Of a stretch of DNA of 64,000 nt, positions 32,270 through 41,922 are shown piece after piece. The stretch's first letter is position 1; every line of letters begins with the position of its first letter. Made by a program: the position numbers and the translations under genes. The stretch is from assembly GCA_002686085.1 (NCBI GenBank), contig NZAC01000034.1:1-64000 (forward strand), written 5' to 3'. This DNA comes from Roseibacillus sp. GTDB lineage: Bacteria; Verrucomicrobiota; Verrucomicrobiia; Verrucomicrobiales; Akkermansiaceae. The notes below the pieces were generated by a model. It had not been told where the DNA came from and searched no databases. It saw only the letters and a program-made list of their open reading frames with translations.

Positions 32270-32622
32270 GATCAGATTGGATTGGCTGATAATTATCTTT
32301 TGGCACGGTCTTGGCAAACGTATCGGAAACGGTTCGCCCCGTTATGCAGGAGAAATTTCCTGGGCCAGGAGAGACGGGCAAGGACTAGCGTCCAAGCGAC
32401 GACACAAGAAGAAGAGGTGCTAGGGTCCAACTGTTCACGGCCGGCAGGATTTGCACGGGGTGCTGGCCCTGTCGAGGGAAAAGGGTTGTGCCGTGCCTCT
32501 CTTCCTCAATTCATCGCTGCATCTTTCGGACCTAGGAATAGAAAAACCCCTCTTTGCTTACCTGCCGCCTTGCCGAATCGCTCTGCATACCTTTGCGTAA
32601 GGGCAGACCATATGGTCTGCGC
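32270..32622. other. Divergent leuA-larE intergenic region
   Basis: About 350 bases without a gene. It holds the upstream regions of both divergent genes. Apart from the palindrome at 32603-32620, I see no terminator, leader peptide or RNA element that I can support. Confidence 0.5.
32603..32620. promoter_or_regulatory. 18-bp perfect palindrome before larE
   Basis: GCAGACCATATGGTCTGC is a perfect inverted repeat ending two bases before the larE ATG. It could be an operator for a dimeric regulator, or an RNA hairpin that limits access to the start codon. No clear Shine-Dalgarno sequence lies at the normal distance. Confidence 0.65.
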
Positions 32623-33426
32623 ATGAAAGATTCTCCCCGGCTTCTAGCCTCAAAAATCATCCACGATTTCGAGCGTGTCCTCGTCGCCTTCTCCGGAGGG
32701 ATCGATAGCACTCTGGTTCTGAGAGTCGCTCGCGAACAACTCGGAGACAATGCGGTAGCCATTACCGCCGTATCCCCAAGTCTCGCTCAAAGCGATTTAG
32801 AAGCCTCCCGGAGGCTCGCCGCTGAGATCGGAGTCGCTCATGAGGTGGTCCAGAGCCGAGAAACTGAAGACCCTCGCTACCAGCGTAACGACTCCCAGCG
32901 CTGCTATTTTTGTAAGACCAATGTCTATCAGTGCCTGATCGACTACGCAAAGGCGGAAGGCTTCAAGTGGATTCTCGATGGCACTAACGCCGATGATCTC
33001 GGAGACCACCGTCCGGGTCTGCGAGCTGCAAGAGAGCACGGGGTCCGCAGCCCGCTTCAAGAGGCCGGAATCGGCAAGGGGGAGATCCGCGAATGGGCAC
33101 GCCAGCTGGGCCTCTCAAACTGGAATCGACCAGCCAACGCCTGCCTCTCTTCCAGAGTGCCCTACGGCTCGGAGGTCACTCCGGAAAAACTCGCACAGGT
33201 CGAACAAGCTGAAGCCTCACTCCGGTCGCTGGGATTTCACGAGCTTCGAGTACGGCATCATGACCAAATAGCTCGTATCGAGGTGAGCCAGAATGAGCTC
33301 GCTCGTGCCGTGGAACAAGGCGATCAAATTACAAAGGCGATGAAGGAGGCGGGATTTTCCTATGCCGCTCTCGACCTCGCAGGGTTCCGGTCGGGGAGTA
33401 TGAATGATGTCCTCAGGAAAAAATGA
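32623..33426 (+). CDS. larE: LarE, ATP-dependent sacrificial sulfur transferase
   Basis: LarE activates P2CMN with ATP and inserts sulfur in synthesis of the nickel-pincer nucleotide. The PP-loop is SGGIDS (24-29). Cys174 in ACLSSR corresponds to the sacrificial Cys of Lactobacillus LarE. A further RCYFCKTN pair (Cys94, Cys97) lies mid-protein. The start ATG 32623 gives 267 residues, normal for the family. It heads larE-larB-larC; its stop overlaps larB by four bases. Confidence 0.92.
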   Translation: MKDSPRLLASKIIHDFERVLVAFSGGIDSTLVLRVAREQLGDNAVAITAVSPSLAQSDLEASRRLAAEIGVAHEVVQSRETEDPRYQRNDSQRCYFCKTNVYQCLIDYAKAEGFKWILDGTNADDLGDHRPGLRAAREHGVRSPLQEAGIGKGEIREWARQLGLSNWNRPANACLSSRVPYGSEVTPEKLAQVEQAEASLRSLGFHELRVRHHDQIARIEVSQNELARAVEQGDQITKAMKEAGFSYAALDLAGFRSGSMNDVLRKK

Positions 33427-34187
33427 AACCCGAACGCATCGAACAACTACTCAATCAGGTCGCAACCGGAGAGGTAACCGCCGCCAAAGCGCTGGAAGAG
33501 CTCCGGGACCTCCCGTTTCAAGATCTTGAGCACACAACCATCGACACCCACCGGGAGCTCCGGCAAGGAGCGCCCGAGGTCGTCTTCGGTGCAGGAAAAA
33601 GTGGGGAGCAGTTGGTTGAAATCCTCGACCGAATTTACCAGAGCCATCAAAGAGCCCTTGCGACCAGAGTCTCCCGTCGCAAGGCCCGCATTGTGGAAGA
33701 AGCACTACCTGAAGCCCGCTACGACAGGCTTTCGCGCCTTCTCGCTCTGGGACAACGCCCAGAAGCAAAAGCTCATCCCTACGCGGTTGTCGCCTGCGCA
33801 GGCACCTCCGATTTGTCTATTGCGGAGGAAGCATCCCAGACCCTCGAGTTCCTCGGTCACCGGGTGGAGCGCCTCACGGATGTGGGAGTTGCCGGTTTGC
33901 ACCGGCTTCTGGATAAGCTAGAGCCTCTTCGAGAAGCGGGAGTAGTGATTAGTGTTGCCGGTATGGAAGGGGCCCTCACCAGTGTCATTGGAGGATTGGT
34001 CGCCTGTCCTGTCATTGGCGTTCCCACCAGCGTGGGATACGGGATCTCGAGAGGGGGTGAAGCTGCCCTGCACGCGATGCTCTCCTCGTGTGCTTCTGGT
34101 GTCTCAGTAGTCAACATTGATAACGGATTTGGCGCCGCAATGGTCGCCAGTTCAATCATGCGATCTGGCGGGAAACACGCCGGTTGA
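33423..34187 (+). CDS. larB: LarB, pyridinium-3,5-biscarboxylic acid mononucleotide synthase
   Basis: LarB carboxylates and hydrolyses nicotinic acid adenine dinucleotide, the first step of the nickel-pincer cofactor pathway. The 254-residue protein has a PurE-like C-terminal domain (SVAGMEGALTSVIGGLVACP, IGVPTSVGYGISRGGEAAL, NIDNGFGAAMVASSI). The N-terminal region contains EVVFGAGKSGEQLVEI. The ATGA overlap with larE and the short gap to larC indicate one operon. Confidence 0.92.
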   Translation: MKPERIEQLLNQVATGEVTAAKALEELRDLPFQDLEHTTIDTHRELRQGAPEVVFGAGKSGEQLVEILDRIYQSHQRALATRVSRRKARIVEEALPEARYDRLSRLLALGQRPEAKAHPYAVVACAGTSDLSIAEEASQTLEFLGHRVERLTDVGVAGLHRLLDKLEPLREAGVVISVAGMEGALTSVIGGLVACPVIGVPTSVGYGISRGGEAALHAMLSSCASGVSVVNIDNGFGAAMVASSIMRSGGKHAG

Positions 34188-34225
34188 GGCTTTCCTTCAG
34201 CCCCAATACCCTTTCCAATCTTCAC

Positions 34226-35431
34226 ATGCGCACGGCTTACTTTGACTGTATTGCAGGAGCAAGTGGGGACATGATGCTTGGAGCGCTGGTAGATGCGGGC
34301 CTACCTGCTGACAAACTGGAGGCCGAGCTCTCCAAGCTTCACCTGAAAGACTTTCACCTGCATATCAATCGCGTCTCCAAGAATGCCTTCAGCGCAGTCA
34401 AAGTCGACGTCCATGTGCATGACGATGCCCCCGAGCGTCACCTCGCCGATATTGTAAAGGTCGTTGAGGACAGCTCCCTGTCCGCGCAGGTCAAGAAAAC
34501 CGCTACTCGTATCTTTACCCGGATCTGCGAGGCAGAAGCTGCAATTCACGATTCTACCGTCGATAAGGTCCACCTTCACGAGGTAGGTGGGGTCGATGCC
34601 ATTGTCGACGTTTGCGGCACCCTCGCCGGACTTGAGGCTTTGGGTATCGAACAGGTTTGCGTTTCTCCATTTCCTCTTGGCCGCGGCTTTGTCACTGGTG
34701 CCCATGGACAGATCCCCCTCCCTGCTCCTGCAGCTCTGGCGTTAATGAAAGGCTGCCCTGTCGCTGGCAGCACCATCGATGCTGAACTCGTCACTCCGAC
34801 TGGTGCCGCAGTTCTCTCGGAGGTGGCCGATGGATTTGGTCCTATCCCTCCAATGGCCCTTAACTCAATCGGTTACGGGGCCGGATCCAACGACCTCGAG
34901 ATTCCGAACGTCCTCCGCCTTCTTCTGGGCGATGCCAGAAGCGGGTCCCACCTTCTCACTGAAACCCTGATACAACTCGAAACGAATCTCGATGATGAGT
35001 CTCCCGAGCTGGTGGGCCATCTCTCCCATCTCCTGATGGAGGCAGGAGCTCTCGATGTCTCAGTGCTTCCTGCCCAGATGAAGAAAGGCCGGCCCGGAAT
35101 ACTCCTTCAAGTTCTTGCTAAACCACAGCAGGCCGACTCTCTGGAACACCTCCTCTTTCATGAGAGCTCTACTCTCGGGGTCCGCCGCCGAGAAGTACAA
35201 CGCAATTCACTGCCCCGTCGCAGCGAGGTAGTTAAGACCAAGTTTGGTGAGATTCGGGTTAAGATAGCGACGCTACCAGGCGGGCAATCCCGAGTGACCC
35301 CGGAATATGAAGACTGCCGGGAAGCGGCCTCCAAAAGCGGAACTCCAATCCGGGAAGTATACCACCAGGCGGAGCACGAAGCTGCCCACGCCCTGAACCT
35401 TCCCCATTCTCACGAAGGGCATGCTCATTGA
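34226..35431 (+). CDS. larC: LarC, nickel-inserting cofactor synthase
   Basis: LarC inserts nickel into the pincer nucleotide, consuming CTP. The 401-residue product begins MRTAYFDCIAGASGDMMLGAL, followed by DKVHLHEVGGVDAIVDV and ETNLDDESPELVGHL. Both regions, which are separate LarC1/LarC2 frames in Lactobacillus plantarum, are here one uninterrupted frame. The protein ends in a His-rich tail (HSHEGHAH) that could bind nickel. ATG 34226 is chosen from the family N-terminus; the frame runs 14 codons further back. No larA lies in the window. Confidence 0.93.
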   Translation: MRTAYFDCIAGASGDMMLGALVDAGLPADKLEAELSKLHLKDFHLHINRVSKNAFSAVKVDVHVHDDAPERHLADIVKVVEDSSLSAQVKKTATRIFTRICEAEAAIHDSTVDKVHLHEVGGVDAIVDVCGTLAGLEALGIEQVCVSPFPLGRGFVTGAHGQIPLPAPAALALMKGCPVAGSTIDAELVTPTGAAVLSEVADGFGPIPPMALNSIGYGAGSNDLEIPNVLRLLLGDARSGSHLLTETLIQLETNLDDESPELVGHLSHLLMEAGALDVSVLPAQMKKGRPGILLQVLAKPQQADSLEHLLFHESSTLGVRRREVQRNSLPRRSEVVKTKFGEIRVKIATLPGGQSRVTPEYEDCREAASKSGTPIREVYHQAEHEAAHALNLPHSHEGHAH

Positions 35432-35506: not shown

Positions 35507-35872
35507 GTGCTTCAGATAGTCTTCAACGTGATTAGCGCTGCCGAGATCTCCCAACTCGACACGCTGGAACAACTCGAGCTACTTGACGAATTCAAGGTCA
35601 AGGAGGAGGACCTTGAAAACCTGGAGGATGATCGGTTTGGAAGAATCGAGAGAGACAACAGGGTGCTCTTTCGCTTTCGCGCGAAGGAGTGGAGGCTCTA
35701 TTTCGAAGTCCTCGATGATCACGTCAAGGTGCACCGCGTCCTTCACAAGAATACCTTTCAGGACTTCCTCTTCCGCTCGAAACTACCTTTTGGCGCAGAA
35801 GACGAGGAGCTCGCACAATCCAAACAATTCTGGCACCTGATCGAAGAAGGCCGCAACGCGGATCCAAGCTAG
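35507..35872 (+). CDS. RelE/ParE-toxin-like small protein
   Basis: The 121-residue product has a helical N-terminus (LDTLEQLELLDEFKVKEEDLEN). A beta-rich part follows (RIERDNRVLFRFRAKEWRLY, DDHVKVHRVLHKNTF) with the order and basic residues seen in RelE/ParE-type proteins. Start is GTG 35507. No antitoxin-sized gene lies on either side, so an active toxin is not supported; a housekeeping RNA-binding role is equally possible. It sits between larC and the ExbB/ExbD cluster. Confidence 0.6.
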   Translation: MLQIVFNVISAAEISQLDTLEQLELLDEFKVKEEDLENLEDDRFGRIERDNRVLFRFRAKEWRLYFEVLDDHVKVHRVLHKNTFQDFLFRSKLPFGAEDEELAQSKQFWHLIEEGRNADPS

Positions 35873-35946: not shown

Positions 35947-36915
35947 TCAGGCTCCTTCTTCGTCCGCCTTCTCCTTCACCTCTGGCTTAGGCTTGTTGTC
36001 CTCGCGGTAACGAAGGAAAGAAGCGAACTCCGCAGGCAGGGGCTTCCCCCCACCGAGGGACTTCTTCCATAGATCGCAAAGGGCAACCCCTTCCTGAAGG
36101 AGAAAATATCCCGGAGAATTGGGATCTTCATCCTCAGTTCCCCATAGTTGAATGGCCAGACGGACTTCATCATTGCCCTTGATGACTCTAAGACAAGCGA
36201 GCGCGGCCTTCTGAGTCAGCTCCTCCGAGGCCGTATAGTCCGCAGTAAAGGCGCCGTTAAATGCAATCAGCGCATCCGTATCCCGGCCCAGCCCCTCGAG
36301 AGCAAGTCCATGACAATACTTCAGCTGCGCCAAGTGCTCCCCAATCCACTTCTTCTCCGCGAGAACCTCTCTTACAAGCGCATCAAGACGGGGCCAGCTC
36401 TTTGTCCGCACCGCGTCCCACACAGCGTAAACTTCCAGCTGATTACGCTGGTGTTCACGCTCTAGGGTATCAGCCTGATATACGTCCAGCAGCTTTTTGA
36501 GCCCTTCGAGATCTTCCAGCTTCCGGCAGGTCTCTAGCTCATAGAACCCAGCTAACGTACTATAATTTCCCCTGATTTCGTCGAGTGTCTCAAAAGCTTT
36601 CTTACATGCGGCAAACTTCTCCCGTGCTCCTGCATAGTCCCGGCTCTCGTAGAGGTCCATTGCTTCCTTGAAGACAGGAGGCTCGAAGAAGTAGACCGAT
36701 TTTACTGCTGATCGCTTGATCCGGCTCCTGTTCAGGCTCTGAGGGGTAGTCTTGTATTCGATCTGAGTTGTACTTGCCGCAGTCATCCAGACCTTGAGAA
36801 CGTCTTCCTGCTTACTTACCGGTTCAGTGTATATGATGACTCCCATCGCGTCTTCTGCGACAACCTTTGCCCCGGGGGCAAAGAGGAGAATGAAGCTTAA
36901 AACCAACTTGTTCAT
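35947..36915 (-). CDS. Exported TPR-like protein, last gene of the ExbB/ExbD cluster
   Basis: The 322-residue protein has a signal peptide (MNKLVLSFILLFAPGAKVVA), a short beta segment (VIIYTEPVSKQEDVLKVWM), then helical repeats of TPR type (MDLYESRDYAGAREKFAACKKAF, CHGLALEGLGRDTDALIAFNGA). The C-terminus is charged (KPKPEVKEKADEEGA). It follows the 999-residue TPR gene by 36 nt on the same strand. Function unknown; a periplasmic scaffold role is inferred. Confidence 0.75.
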   Translation of the reverse strand: MNKLVLSFILLFAPGAKVVAEDAMGVIIYTEPVSKQEDVLKVWMTAASTTQIEYKTTPQSLNRSRIKRSAVKSVYFFEPPVFKEAMDLYESRDYAGAREKFAACKKAFETLDEIRGNYSTLAGFYELETCRKLEDLEGLKKLLDVYQADTLEREHQRNQLEVYAVWDAVRTKSWPRLDALVREVLAEKKWIGEHLAQLKYCHGLALEGLGRDTDALIAFNGAFTADYTASEELTQKAALACLRVIKGNDEVRLAIQLWGTEDEDPNSPGYFLLQEGVALCDLWKKSLGGGKPLPAEFASFLRYREDNKPKPEVKEKADEEGA

Positions 36916-36951
36916 ATCGTGATTCTGTTAGGGGTTGGAAGAGCGTTCTTG

Positions 36952-39951
36952 TTACTTCGGCTTCTCCTCTACGATCTTGGTTACCGAGCTGTGGCCCTCA
37001 TAGCGCTCTACGAGATCACGCACAGACTCCCAGAGCTCTCTTTCCTCATCCTTCATCTGCTCGAGAAGATGCTCTGTAGATTTCCGGAACTTGTATCCGA
37101 TCTCGTAAGCTTGCTGATGATCGTCACCATTGTTGCGCTCCCATACCAATTCCATCACTCTCTTCATTGAGGGTGCTGATATCCGGATAAGTCCCGTATA
37201 GCTGGCCCAGGTGTTGTTGTAGGCAACGATGGCATCCTCCCGCATGTTGCGCTTGTCGTAAGACTGAGAGAGGAAGAAGGAAGTCTCCGCGGCGTATCGC
37301 CGGAATCCCTCCGTAGTCAGATACTCCTTGGCTCGGGTGGTCACAAAATCCCAGTCACCCTTAGCCGCCAGAATACTCACGATTCGATAAAGAGCTCTTT
37401 CCTTCTGTTTCTTCTGAGGAGCGTTTTTGAAAATGTTTTCCAGACTGTTGATCGCTTTCTGCTTCTCGGTCGGGCTTTGTGATTCTCCGAGAATATCGGC
37501 CAATCCAAAGTTCGCATTGAAGCGGTATGACTGGTCCTCCCGCCTGACCACCTCGCTGTAGTAGGCGAGCGCATTCCTCGGAGTGCTGGTCATTTCGCGA
37601 AGGTAATCCCCGACACGAACCAGCACATAATTCGTCAACTGAGCAGGTTCGAACTCACCTTTGAGGTCCCGGAAAAGGACACCCACCATGGCTTCCGCTG
37701 CGCGTTTATCATTCGCATTTTCTTCCTTGTCGGCCTTCTTCCCTTTCTCCTCAAAGACGGTGATAAGGGCTATCCGAAGCAGGGCCTGAGCTTCCTTGTT
37801 TCCCGAGTCGATCCCGGGGAAATTGTAATAATGCTCTTTGAGGTCATCCTCACTGTGGCTCTCGAGGTAGGCCCGCGTGTAGGAGTTAATGGCCTCTTCC
37901 AATCCAAATGCTCCAGCAACAGAGGCGAGCTCTGCGATGACTCCCTGTAATCGTTCCAAGGCCTCTTCCTCGCGCCCTACAACTGTTAATGGGTGAACAC
38001 CCGCAACCGCCGTCTGGGCCTTGTAAGGAGAAGCGGACCCGTGGTCCTTCCAGAACTCGTCATAGTAGGGGACCGCATCCTTTACTCGTGGATTCTCTTT
38101 TTTCCCTCGTTTCTCCGAACCTAGAAGCCCTACCAGGTAAAAGAGAGATTCACCGACAACAATGGTATTTTCGCGCCTCTTGGCGAGTTCCATTGCCTTC
38201 TTGTAATAAACTTCCGCAGGGTCCCACTCCTCTTGAGTCTGGAGAACATTGCCTTTGAGATTGAACGCCATGTCCATGATGTCGCTATTGGGAAACTCAC
38301 TTTCGAGCCGGTTCAATTTCACCAACGCCGGGTCGAGCTCATCTTCAGCAAAATGACAGTTCGCCCGGTCGTAGAGGGCGAATGGAAGGTAGATATTCTT
38401 CCCGGGGTCAGGATATTTGGAAAGGAACACGTCGAGAAGCTCGGCCGCTTTTCCCCAGTATTGCAGTCGAGATAGGTTTGAACCCTGAAAGTAGAGAGCC
38501 GCCATCCGGAACTGGCTCTTCTCATACATTTCTACGTGTTCATCGAGAAACTTGCGCGCCACATCATACTTAGCCGTATAGTAATAGCTCCCCCCGAGAA
38601 CATGGAGGCAGATATCGTGCTGCTTGGAAGGGGAAGCCAGCTTGGGCAACATCACGGTCGCAACTTCGATGCACTTCTCATACTCCCCCTCCATAAAGAG
38701 GCTGGTCAGCATCATACTCCGGACAGACTCCACATGCTTGCTGTCAGGGAACGTTTTAAGGAAAAGGCTGCCGTATTTCTCCGTCACAAGAACTTCACCA
38801 ATAATCGCGGAGGTCCTGACCAGATTATAGAGATTCTCTTCACGCTTCTTTGCCTTGCTGTGATAAAGTTCAAGCTGCTCGTAGGCGGCAAAAGCTCCAC
38901 GGACGTTGCCATACTGCTCGTGGATGTATGCGGTAGCAGCAGTCGCAAAAACCTCATAGGGATTCCCTGATGCCCATTGCTTCTTCAGCTCGTCAAGGTC
39001 TGCTTCGAGCACCTTCTTCTCGATCTGCCGGTTGCTCCGAGGAGGGTCCTGGAATGGATTTTCGAATGTGCCAACCTGGGCAAGACGAGCCTTGATGTCA
39101 TCTATGGATGCCTTTGTGCTCGGCACCAGAGCATATAGCTCAAAGGCCGACCGTTCCATTTCGGCAGCAAGGGCATCTGCCGCAAGCTTCATCAAAACCG
39201 GGGCAAAGCGATGCATCTTGAATGGCTCGAGGCGAATATCCGAACGGTGTTTCCCAAGGAAGTCCATCAGTGCCTGCTCATTCTGCTTTTCGATGACTGC
39301 CTCGACGAGGTCCTGAAACCCGACCATGATCCCCTCATCCGGCGTGGGAAAGGTCTCCTTGTTATCAATAGCGATTTCTAAATTTTCGATGCCACCTGGA
39401 ACCTGGAAGAGTTTGAAGTGCGCCTTGGACATGTTGACGTAGAACGCTCCCCGCGGGTAAGCGTCCTTCTTCGGGTCCCGCTCCTGCAGAAATTTTTTGT
39501 ACATCTTGATGGCTACTTCCCAGTCCTGAGCCCCGATAGCCGCATCTCCCCATTTGAGGAGCGCCTTCTTGTGGTAGAAATTGAAGCTGCCCTGTGTTGC
39601 CGCATCCAATCCAGCTCCCCCAGCATTCTTGTTCGGATACTTCGTGTAGCAGGCCTTGAACGACTCCATCGCTTCTTCCCACTGCCGCAGTTTGAGTTCG
39701 CAGTATCCCTTGTGATACCAGAACCAGCCAAACCGAGGTCCAAACAGGGTTTTAGCCCTGCCATCATACTGGGCAACTGCCTTGGCCAGAATCGCGTGCG
39801 CTTTCGCCCACTCTTTCGCCTTCATTGCGGTCAGTGAATTTGCCCAAGCCGTTTCCACTCCTCCCTGCGCAAGAGATTTTTCAGGGAGACATAGGGATAC
39901 GCAGAGGGCCATTAGGCCACAAAGGATCCGGTTCTTTGGGGATTGAATCAT
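36952..39951 (-). CDS. Large exported TPR-repeat protein
   Basis: The 999-residue protein starts with a signal peptide (MIQSPKNRILCGLMALCVSLCLPEKSLA) and then consists almost fully of TPR-type helix pairs. Examples are YHKGYCELKLRQWEEAMESF, DWEVAIKMYKKFLQERDPKK, YTAKYDVARKFLDEHVEMYE and WDPAEVYYKKAMELAKRREN. It lies downstream of two ExbD genes and one ExbB gene in one orientation. A periplasmic scaffold driven by or holding the ExbB/ExbD motor is a reasonable inference; nothing in the sequence shows enzymatic activity. Confidence 0.82.
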   Translation of the reverse strand: MIQSPKNRILCGLMALCVSLCLPEKSLAQGGVETAWANSLTAMKAKEWAKAHAILAKAVAQYDGRAKTLFGPRFGWFWYHKGYCELKLRQWEEAMESFKACYTKYPNKNAGGAGLDAATQGSFNFYHKKALLKWGDAAIGAQDWEVAIKMYKKFLQERDPKKDAYPRGAFYVNMSKAHFKLFQVPGGIENLEIAIDNKETFPTPDEGIMVGFQDLVEAVIEKQNEQALMDFLGKHRSDIRLEPFKMHRFAPVLMKLAADALAAEMERSAFELYALVPSTKASIDDIKARLAQVGTFENPFQDPPRSNRQIEKKVLEADLDELKKQWASGNPYEVFATAATAYIHEQYGNVRGAFAAYEQLELYHSKAKKREENLYNLVRTSAIIGEVLVTEKYGSLFLKTFPDSKHVESVRSMMLTSLFMEGEYEKCIEVATVMLPKLASPSKQHDICLHVLGGSYYYTAKYDVARKFLDEHVEMYEKSQFRMAALYFQGSNLSRLQYWGKAAELLDVFLSKYPDPGKNIYLPFALYDRANCHFAEDELDPALVKLNRLESEFPNSDIMDMAFNLKGNVLQTQEEWDPAEVYYKKAMELAKRRENTIVVGESLFYLVGLLGSEKRGKKENPRVKDAVPYYDEFWKDHGSASPYKAQTAVAGVHPLTVVGREEEALERLQGVIAELASVAGAFGLEEAINSYTRAYLESHSEDDLKEHYYNFPGIDSGNKEAQALLRIALITVFEEKGKKADKEENANDKRAAEAMVGVLFRDLKGEFEPAQLTNYVLVRVGDYLREMTSTPRNALAYYSEVVRREDQSYRFNANFGLADILGESQSPTEKQKAINSLENIFKNAPQKKQKERALYRIVSILAAKGDWDFVTTRAKEYLTTEGFRRYAAETSFFLSQSYDKRNMREDAIVAYNNTWASYTGLIRISAPSMKRVMELVWERNNGDDHQQAYEIGYKFRKSTEHLLEQMKDEERELWESVRDLVERYEGHSSVTKIVEEKPK

Positions 39952-40105
39952 GTCGAATGGGGTTTGTCGTTTGGGTAGATTTTTTCTCAGAATCCGGGCT
40001 GCCCGGCAAGAACACCAACGTTTAGGAGAAGATTTTCTTAGATCCTCTCTGGAGCCTCCAGCAAAAAATTGCTACTCGGAGGAGCTGGAAGGCGGCAATA
40101 ATACC

Positions 40106-40591
40106 CTATTTGAGCTGCTCGTCCTGGGCCACAAGATCGGTAAAGGTGACCGTACTAATGTCGTGCTTGGCGAGATGGTTGAGAACATCCGAGACCACTT
40201 GCTGCTCTGCCTCCCCCTCAACATAAATCTGAACGAGAGGCTTGTTGTTGCCTGCTTTTGCAGCAGCGGCATATATTTCCAGTCGCTGATCGAGCACCGG
40301 AAGAATCCGTTCAGCGCCCTGCGCCTCGGTATCGAGAAGCTCCTCGGCGGCCCCGACGTTGGCATAAACATGGCCATCGTTGCTGACCTTGATGAAGAAT
40401 GGCTGGATATCTGGCTGAGCCTCGGAAGGCGCAGCCGAGGGAAGCGCCATGCTATTGTCCCTCTCTTTCTGCTTAATGGTAGTAGTAACCAGAAAGTAAA
40501 TCAGAAGAAGGAAACAGATATCAATGAGCGGGGAAATACTAAGCTCAGGCTTATCTTCCTCAAGTGCGGTAGCTCTACGATGTCTGGCCAT
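40106..40591 (-). CDS. exbD: ExbD/TolR biopolymer transport protein (second copy)
   Basis: The 161-residue protein has a cytoplasmic N-terminus and one membrane helix (ISPLIDICFLLLIYFLVTTT). The Asp within PLID is the proton-conducting residue of ExbD/TolR. A periplasmic domain follows (GNNKPLVQIYVEGEAEQQVVS, ISTVTFTDLVAQDE). It is paired with another exbD 23 nt upstream; two ExbD paralogs beside one ExbB suggest a hetero-oligomeric stator. It precedes the large TPR gene by 154 nt. Confidence 0.9.
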   Translation of the reverse strand: MARHRRATALEEDKPELSISPLIDICFLLLIYFLVTTTIKQKERDNSMALPSAAPSEAQPDIQPFFIKVSNDGHVYANVGAAEELLDTEAQGAERILPVLDQRLEIYAAAAKAGNNKPLVQIYVEGEAEQQVVSDVLNHLAKHDISTVTFTDLVAQDEQLK

Positions 40592-40614
40592 GGGATCAGT
40601 TCTCCTTGCTTATG

Positions 40615-41085
40615 CTAGCTACTACGGGACCAGAGGCTCACAAAGATGACCTCGTTGACTCCTGCTGCCGCCGCTGCGCGAATGACACGACGGACATAGG
40701 TAAAGTGTACTTTGCCATCGGCGCGAAGATGAAGTCTGGGTTTCTGCCCCTTGAGGTCCCAGTTCTCCTTTTCTTTCTTGATGAAGTCGACCAGGTCCTC
40801 GTCGTCCGCAAAAACCTCTTTACCATCTGCCATCCGGAAGCGGCCCTCACCCGCAAATTCATCGCTGTAGACGTTAACCACGATGCGGCCCATCTTATCG
40901 TTTTGCTTCTCAGAGTAGCGCGCAATAGGCACCTGCACACGCTTATCCATCTCCACGATGATAAGGGTGGCATTGACGATAAAGAAAATCAGCAGCAGGA
41001 AGACCATGTCGATCATAGGCGACATGTCGACCTGGGTATCGTCCTCCTGCTCTTGCTGGGTAGCGCGCAGTTTACTGGAAGCCAT
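40615..41085 (-). CDS. exbD: ExbD/TolR biopolymer transport protein (first copy)
   Basis: The 156-residue protein has the motif VDMSPMIDMVFLLLIFFIV with the conserved membrane Asp. Its periplasmic part includes KPRLHLRADGKVHFTYVRRV and GVNEVIFVSLW. It lies 48 nt after the exbB gene. The sequence differs from the second copy outside the helix, so the two are not a recent duplication. Confidence 0.9.
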   Translation of the reverse strand: MASSKLRATQQEQEDDTQVDMSPMIDMVFLLLIFFIVNATLIIVEMDKRVQVPIARYSEKQNDKMGRIVVNVYSDEFAGEGRFRMADGKEVFADDEDLVDFIKKEKENWDLKGQKPRLHLRADGKVHFTYVRRVIRAAAAAGVNEVIFVSLWSRSS

Positions 41086-41133
41086 AGGTCATGCTGATTG
41101 AGAAGCCGAATACAGAACCGGCGCAGCCCTTAC

Positions 41134-41922
41134 TTAGACTGCGATTCCTTCCGGGATCTTGGCCAGATACGCATCCTGATTCACGGTCTGAATAGAAGCA
41201 TTGATCAACTCCTCGGAGGTGTGATGAGCCTCCGCTACCAAGTTGTTCAACCTATTCTTGAAGAAGAAGTAGGAAATCAGGGAGGGGATGGCAGTCAACA
41301 ATCCCCAGAAGGTAGTCAGAAGCGCAATCTGGATATCTCCCGCAAGCTGAGCGGGCTCAGCTGCACCGGTCGAACTGAGAACCCCGAACGCGTTGACCAT
41401 TCCATACACCGTTCCAAACAGACCGAGCATGGGAGCTGCCTGAGCAATGAGCGCAATGTAGTTAATCCAGACCATGTTCTTCCGGCTTTCGTTAATGGTA
41501 AAGTCTGCCACAGCATCCTCCACTCCGTCTCTTCCAAGGTCCTCAGGCTTGGTGGCATCAATATTGGGCAAGGAGTAAGCCAGCATGCGGCCCAGGTAGC
41601 TTGGATGGGAGGCCGCGAGCTCAATCGCGGAGCGAACCCGGCAGTTCATCATATGGTCGAGCAGGGCGGCCTTGAGATCATCGGGACAGAATTTCGGCTT
41701 GGTGAGATTGATAAAGTTGAAAACGCTGAGGGCGAGCAGGGCGATAATAGCGAGAGCGATGAGCCCCATCGGCCAGCCCCCATCGAGAACCCACTTCTGG
41801 AGAGCATTCTTATCACCCGTTGGCGCTTCACCCTGCGCCATGAGGCCAGGAGCCGAGACAAGGAGAGTGGTGAGCACTAGCGAAAAAGCGCTGAAGAGAC
41901 CTTTCTTGGTTTTATAGATCAT
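41134..41922 (-). CDS. exbB: MotA/TolQ/ExbB proton-channel family protein
   Basis: The 262-residue protein has a signal-like N-terminal helix and three further membrane segments (MGLIALAIIALLALSVFNFI, APMLGLFGTVYGMVNAFGVL, QIALLTTFWGLLTAIPSLIS). GLFGTVYGM and TTFWGLLTAIP are the family hallmarks. With ExbD it forms a proton-driven motor in the inner membrane. It heads a minus-strand set of five genes, and no TonB or Pal gene is nearby. Confidence 0.92.
   Translation of the reverse strand: MIYKTKKGLFSAFSLVLTTLLVSAPGLMAQGEAPTGDKNALQKWVLDGGWPMGLIALAIIALLALSVFNFINLTKPKFCPDDLKAALLDHMMNCRVRSAIELAASHPSYLGRMLAYSLPNIDATKPEDLGRDGVEDAVADFTINESRKNMVWINYIALIAQAAPMLGLFGTVYGMVNAFGVLSSTGAAEPAQLAGDIQIALLTTFWGLLTAIPSLISYFFFKNRLNNLVAEAHHTSEELINASIQTVNQDAYLAKIPEGIAV

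Follow-up and report, generated by a model that had tools for sequence, protein, structure and literature searches.

A Roseibacillus ExbB-ExbD-ExbD-TPR operon as a probable marine orthologue of the Akkermansia MUL1 machine

Introduction

What might a proton-driven ExbB-ExbD motor work on when it is encoded together with large exported TPR proteins? The question is raised by an operon of Roseibacillus sp. (Verrucomicrobiota; Akkermansiaceae), found in a stretch of 64,000 nucleotides that was analysed as a whole and is called the window here (GenBank assembly GCA_002686085.1, contig NZAC01000034.1, positions 1 to 64,000). In the gut relative Akkermansia muciniphila, MUL genes are needed to accumulate mucin in an internal compartment, according to reviews of transposon genetics, and pili are also listed among the MUL genes in a review. 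For aquatic Akkermansiaceae, a 2026 paper stated that synteny of mucin utilisation locus 1 (MUL1) is absent and presented MUL1 as a mucin-specific adaptation (PMC13174399). Furthermore, labelled fucoidan was shown to accumulate inside the cells of marine members of the family (PMC13174399).

The operon and its products

The operon runs from 41922 to 35947 as five co-directional open reading frames in the order ExbB-ExbD1-ExbD2-TPR (999 aa)-322-aa protein (Table 1), with short intergenic gaps except for the 154 bp before the 999-aa TPR gene. All five frames of the module named in a preliminary description were recovered, and its account of a motor with two distinct ExbDs linked to exported TPR proteins is borne out. 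Both the 999-aa and the 322-aa proteins begin with a Sec-type signal sequence, as read from the sequence, and have no obvious lipobox. TonB, TolA, TolB and Pal are all missing from the five-gene module, as the same description had said of TonB, TolB and Pal, and no TonB-like protein completes the system within it.

Table 1. Genes of the operon in the window
Feature	Position	Strand	Length	Match
exbB (ExbB/TolQ-type proton channel subunit)	41134-41922	-	262 aa	Pfam MotA_ExbB 7.8e-24
exbD1, first of two distinct ExbD/TolR proteins	40615-41085	-	156 aa	Pfam ExbD 2.2e-17
exbD2, second ExbD/TolR protein	40106-40591	-	161 aa	Pfam ExbD 2e-16
Large exported TPR scaffold protein	36952-39951	-	999 aa	many Pfam TPR models
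Mul1B-family exported protein	35947-36915	-	322 aa	NCBIfam Mul1B

The flanking genes are unrelated, with nth and a 3D-domain protein upstream and a ParE-like gene followed by larBCE downstream. The ParE-like gene (35507-35872; weak Pfam match) is convergent to the operon and is kept beside it in Roseibacillus genomes and also in L054/L136, and a larE-larB-larC-like series for nickel-pincer cofactor synthesis, named from sequence alone, occupies 32554-35431 on the plus strand. Neither carbohydrate-active enzymes nor sulfatases were found beside the locus, where the neighbours are housekeeping genes, and promoter and terminator scans gave nothing exceeding shuffled sequences.

The AlphaFold2 model of the 999-aa protein (pLDDT 87.4) is a single long continuous alpha-solenoid of about 46 helices. 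The 322-aa protein has no TPR match in Pfam, and its model (pLDDT 90.9) combines a small N-terminal beta-barrel (residues 23-76) with a TPR-like helical-repeat solenoid (80-303). Foldseek searches of both models against the PDB returned generic TPR solenoids alone and picked out no specific relative. Comparison with named genomes places the window in a marine, Roseibacillus-like member of Akkermansiaceae: UBA5689 and Roseibacillus sp. SP52 have large TPR proteins 97-98% identical to that of the window. Two other genomes carry, beside the module, additional copies of the large TPR gene or pieces of the TPR pair (L057:13053-15992; L086:7515-9122).

Relationship to Akkermansia MUL1

The identity of the operon is indicated by its last gene. 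The 322-aa protein scores 245.6 bits against NCBIfam NF052542 ('Mul1B family putative transporter subunit'), well past the cut-off of 75, and the same model is passed by a protein of the A. muciniphila type strain (ATCC BAA-835). The locus around that strain's mul1B reads nth-exbB-exbD-exbD-TPR-mul1B, equal in order to the window; as such, MUL1 of A. muciniphila shares with the Roseibacillus operon five proteins in the same order and the nth and 3D-domain genes upstream. Model match and gene order point firmly to an operon orthologous to the MUL1 machine, in which the large TPR protein would correspond to Mul1A. The preliminary description had suggested that the system might be undescribed, which no longer holds: transposon genetics in Akkermansia had already revealed this machine as MUL1, and NCBI has given it a name.

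The two loci nevertheless differ. Identity to the Akkermansia proteins is low, at 26-27% for the large TPR protein and 20-21% for Mul1B, and the spacing between exbD2 and the TPR gene is about 1.1 kb in the A. muciniphila type strain compared to 154 bp in the window. A 206-aa frame called in this interval in A. muciniphila has no Pfam match and looks spurious, and the adjacent NCBIfam accession NF052541 describes an unrelated nucleoid protein. The host of the window module is also marine, unlike gut Akkermansia, which makes mucin an unlikely substrate.

Conservation in Akkermansiaceae and a rotated version across the phylum

The full order ExbB-ExbD-ExbD-TPR-Mul1B was found in 75 of 95 Akkermansiaceae loci. 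The other 20 comprise 14 loci cut by contig ends, one with a split ExbD frame and five without exbBDD beside the TPR pair. Because it recurs in 75 of the 95 family loci, the gene order far exceeds chance, and the linkage of TPR genes to exbBD that the preliminary description anticipated in relatives is kept. Together with the full order in cultured aquatic strains, this count contradicts the published claim of no MUL1 synteny in aquatic members (PMC13174399), unless the definition of MUL1 used in that paper took in additional genes. Of 384 Verrucomicrobiota genomes sampled, 39 have a protein scoring above the Mul1B cut-off, and every one of them belongs to Akkermansiaceae. G030 (genus g2, rated 99% complete) is the one family genome out of 45 in which neither Mul1B nor the large TPR protein was detected.

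At a threshold of E <= 1e-25, the large TPR protein was detected by profile in 205 of the 384 sampled Verrucomicrobiota genomes and not in the other 179, some of which are complete. In regions taken from many of the matching genomes a second, rotated gene order was read, in which a TPR protein of about 1000 residues and a protein of about 300 aa precede ExbB, ExbD and ExbD; 10 Akkermansiaceae genomes have it, and it extends to other families, orders and classes. Directly upstream of 48 ExbB genes lies a large TPR gene, a count that takes in Akkermansiaceae copies and the C22 cluster of the window genome, where the middle protein is missing. Most loci of the rotated type have a single frame of 264-442 aa separating the TPR gene from exbB; in L061, L062 and L068 this frame, as predicted, runs into the adjacent genes, and here it was detected by profile. 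The five genes were not seen at every rotated locus, given that L190 has no detected ExbD after ExbB and that L156 and L186 run off contig ends. Where the middle protein is missed by the Mul1B profile, it is still linked to Mul1B by profile-profile comparison, at 97.7% directly and 99.9% via an intermediate group.

The modules in window order form one clade by ExbB (84/84, support 0.77), and they do so by the TPR protein as well, with support 1.0. Among 31 Akkermansiaceae genomes compared, 21, one of which is that of the window, carry the module in window order without a rotated copy, and the remaining 10 (G374, G299, G255, G269, G215, G178, G252, G305, G360 and G244) have no window-type exbBDD and all carry the rotated module; these genomes are related, so no probability is attached to the count. 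The mutual exclusion of the two versions within the family (21 versus 10) fits the idea that they are interchangeable forms of one machine. With rotated modules beyond Akkermansiaceae and the large TPR protein in more than half of the sampled genomes, the earlier suggestion of a general system of the phylum is supported as a hypothesis.

Motor residues

Proton-path residues are conserved in ExbB and in both ExbDs, which keep the proton-carrying Asp. The transmembrane Asp26 of ExbD1 and the ExbB pore threonines T171 and T204 are invariant in all 128 modules, and the transmembrane Asp24 of ExbD2 is present in 127 of the 128. In the tree the 124 ExbD1 and 124 ExbD2 proteins stay wholly apart, though the branch dividing them is weakly supported (0.158). 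ExbB of the window has Ile at residue 199, aligned with the conserved pore glutamate of E. coli ExbB, which is part of the proton path. Among the 84 modules in window order, 82 have Val or Ile at this position, compared to Glu in 32 of the 44 others, and the replacement would be a lineage-specific change in the proton path.

Comparison with known systems and alternative explanations

Several better-known machines combine an ExbBD-type motor with TPR proteins or serve a similar end. The nearest published architecture is the AglRQS-Glt/Nfs machine of Myxococcus xanthus, a proton-driven system that acts on surface glycan (PMC3169522, PMC3858216). In this organism AglR-AglQ-AglS comprise one ExbB and two ExbDs and are joined by the exported TPR proteins GltD (1191 aa) and GltE (471 aa; PMC3169522), and the machine carries strands of glycan across the surface of the spore (PMC3858216). 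The window operon matches this plan of one ExbB, two ExbDs and two exported TPR proteins of unequal size, one of them large, and it does so in architecture alone, since membership by sequence was not detected. An Agl-Glt/Nfs-like role, in which the motor would move outer-membrane or surface proteins such as adhesins, type IV-like pili or capsule via the TPR scaffold and glycan uptake would be an indirect consequence, gains some weight from this likeness and from the pili among the MUL genes, yet it is judged unlikely. In NCBIfam scans the Glt models matched neither the window nor the Akkermansia proteins, and within the genome the GltE model did not match the module. Moreover, the operon has no GltG-like FHA/TonB transducer, and the Agl/Glt genes of M. 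xanthus, unlike those of the window, are divided among separate clusters and have additional partners (GltG, GltJ, GltA-C). Type IX secretion, which pairs GldLM with SprE/PorW, is also a poor match (26.4 bits against the SprE/PorW equivalog cut-off of 250), and the locus has no SusC-like TonB-dependent receptor as in a Sus-type PUL, although plug domains lie elsewhere in the genome. In the Campylobacter flagellar motor, the periplasmic TPR solenoids PflA and PflB serve a MotAB-type motor. These proteins appear among the fold matches, but their likeness to the window proteins is that of generic TPR, and a flagellar stator has other biology.

Tol-Pal with CpoB likewise pairs an ExbBD-type motor with a periplasmic TPR protein, and the envelope constriction entertained in the preliminary description would assign the large TPR protein a CpoB-like role in envelope maintenance or division. 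Local likeness of this protein to CpoB/YbgF (PDB 6g5s for its Akkermansia counterpart) is consistent with such a role, as is the fact that TolR is the best of the equivalog models for the ExbDs. However, these scores fall far beneath the cut-offs (about 40 bits against 127 for tolR and, for ExbB, 63.5 against 221 for tolQ), the module has two ExbDs, no TolA and no other Tol-Pal partner, and the failure to find the large TPR protein, at the threshold used, in 179 of the 384 genomes, some of them complete, is unexpected for a division function. In addition, the genome has a separate cluster on C47 (L178:8899-11340) in which a 407-aa TolA/TonB-like protein directly precedes exbB-exbD and which constitutes its own transducer-type system. 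Constriction is therefore considered improbable and that part of the earlier proposal is not sustained.

The motor could instead be an ordinary TonB energiser, powering the lone TonB encoded on C11 and its TonB-dependent receptors with the TPR proteins as accessories. The genome does contain this one protein with a TonB C-terminal domain and without its own exbBD, together with four plug-domain receptors, none of them in the operon (two on C2, one at C34:97116 and one on C49). This explanation is very unlikely, as the linked partners of the motor across the phylum are TPR proteins and not TonB, ExbB scores only 54.6 bits against the exbB equivalog cut-off of 206, and three other exbBD clusters could serve TonB. 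Besides C47, these are an exbB-exbD-TPR-TPR cluster on C14 (L176) and a TPR-exbB-exbD cluster on C22 (L177), both with TPR proteins of 800-1100 aa, a single ExbD and arrangements differing from the window module. Transducer proteins thus exist in the organism, yet the window motor is tied to TPR proteins instead.

Proposed function and implications

The reading preferred here, with a probability of roughly two in three, is that marine Roseibacillus has in this operon an orthologue of MUL1, whose ExbBDD motor acts on a periplasmic TPR scaffold for the uptake of large glycans, a function suggested by Akkermansia genetics. ExbB with one ExbD1 and one ExbD2 would form a proton-driven motor in the inner membrane, by analogy with the ExbB5-ExbD2 stoichiometry. 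The periplasmic ends of the ExbDs could then work directly on a soluble scaffold, made of the 999-aa TPR solenoid and the 322-aa Mul1B, which would replace the TonB/TolA rod and may couple the motor to an outer-membrane entry route encoded elsewhere in the genome. Large glycans would be drawn into the periplasm and held there during digestion by sulfatases and glycosidases. Mucin is the cargo in gut Akkermansia, and sulfated or fucosylated algal polysaccharide would be the more likely one in the marine lineage. Many sulfatase candidates are present in the Roseibacillus genome; across the 384 genomes the sulfatase search scored only about five candidates per genome, too few for a correlation.

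We infer a role in uptake for this organism from the genetics of Akkermansia and the fucoidan uptake of marine Akkermansiaceae. Of the two roles suggested earlier, large-substrate uptake is the likely one and is well supported as a hypothesis. The machine is probably a general engine for drawing large polysaccharides into the cell envelope and not a gut-specific invention. A broader proposal is more tentative and falls a little short of even odds: the modules could represent a phylum-wide, TonB-independent class of outer-membrane import, in which ExbB and an obligate ExbD1/ExbD2 pair drive a periplasmic TPR scaffold that pulls whole polysaccharides into the periplasm, with mucin uptake by Akkermansia as one recent specialisation.

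Marine members of Verrucomicrobiota have been reported to accumulate labelled fucoidan and laminarin intracellularly, and the module bears on how large polysaccharides could be taken in without Sus-type loci. If true, a phylum-wide importer independent of TonB would supply the motor that is so far missing from the picture of 'selfish' polysaccharide uptake in this phylum. With the mucin machine of Akkermansia present in marine and freshwater relatives, and its rotated form phylum-wide, a supposed gut adaptation becomes a general candidate engine. Cultivable, named strains carry the machine as a single operon, and the full order was found in the cultured aquatic strains Roseibacillus persicicus KCTC 12988, Luteolibacter marinus NBU1238, Haloferula rosea KCTC 22201 and Persicirhabdus sediminis KCTC 22039.
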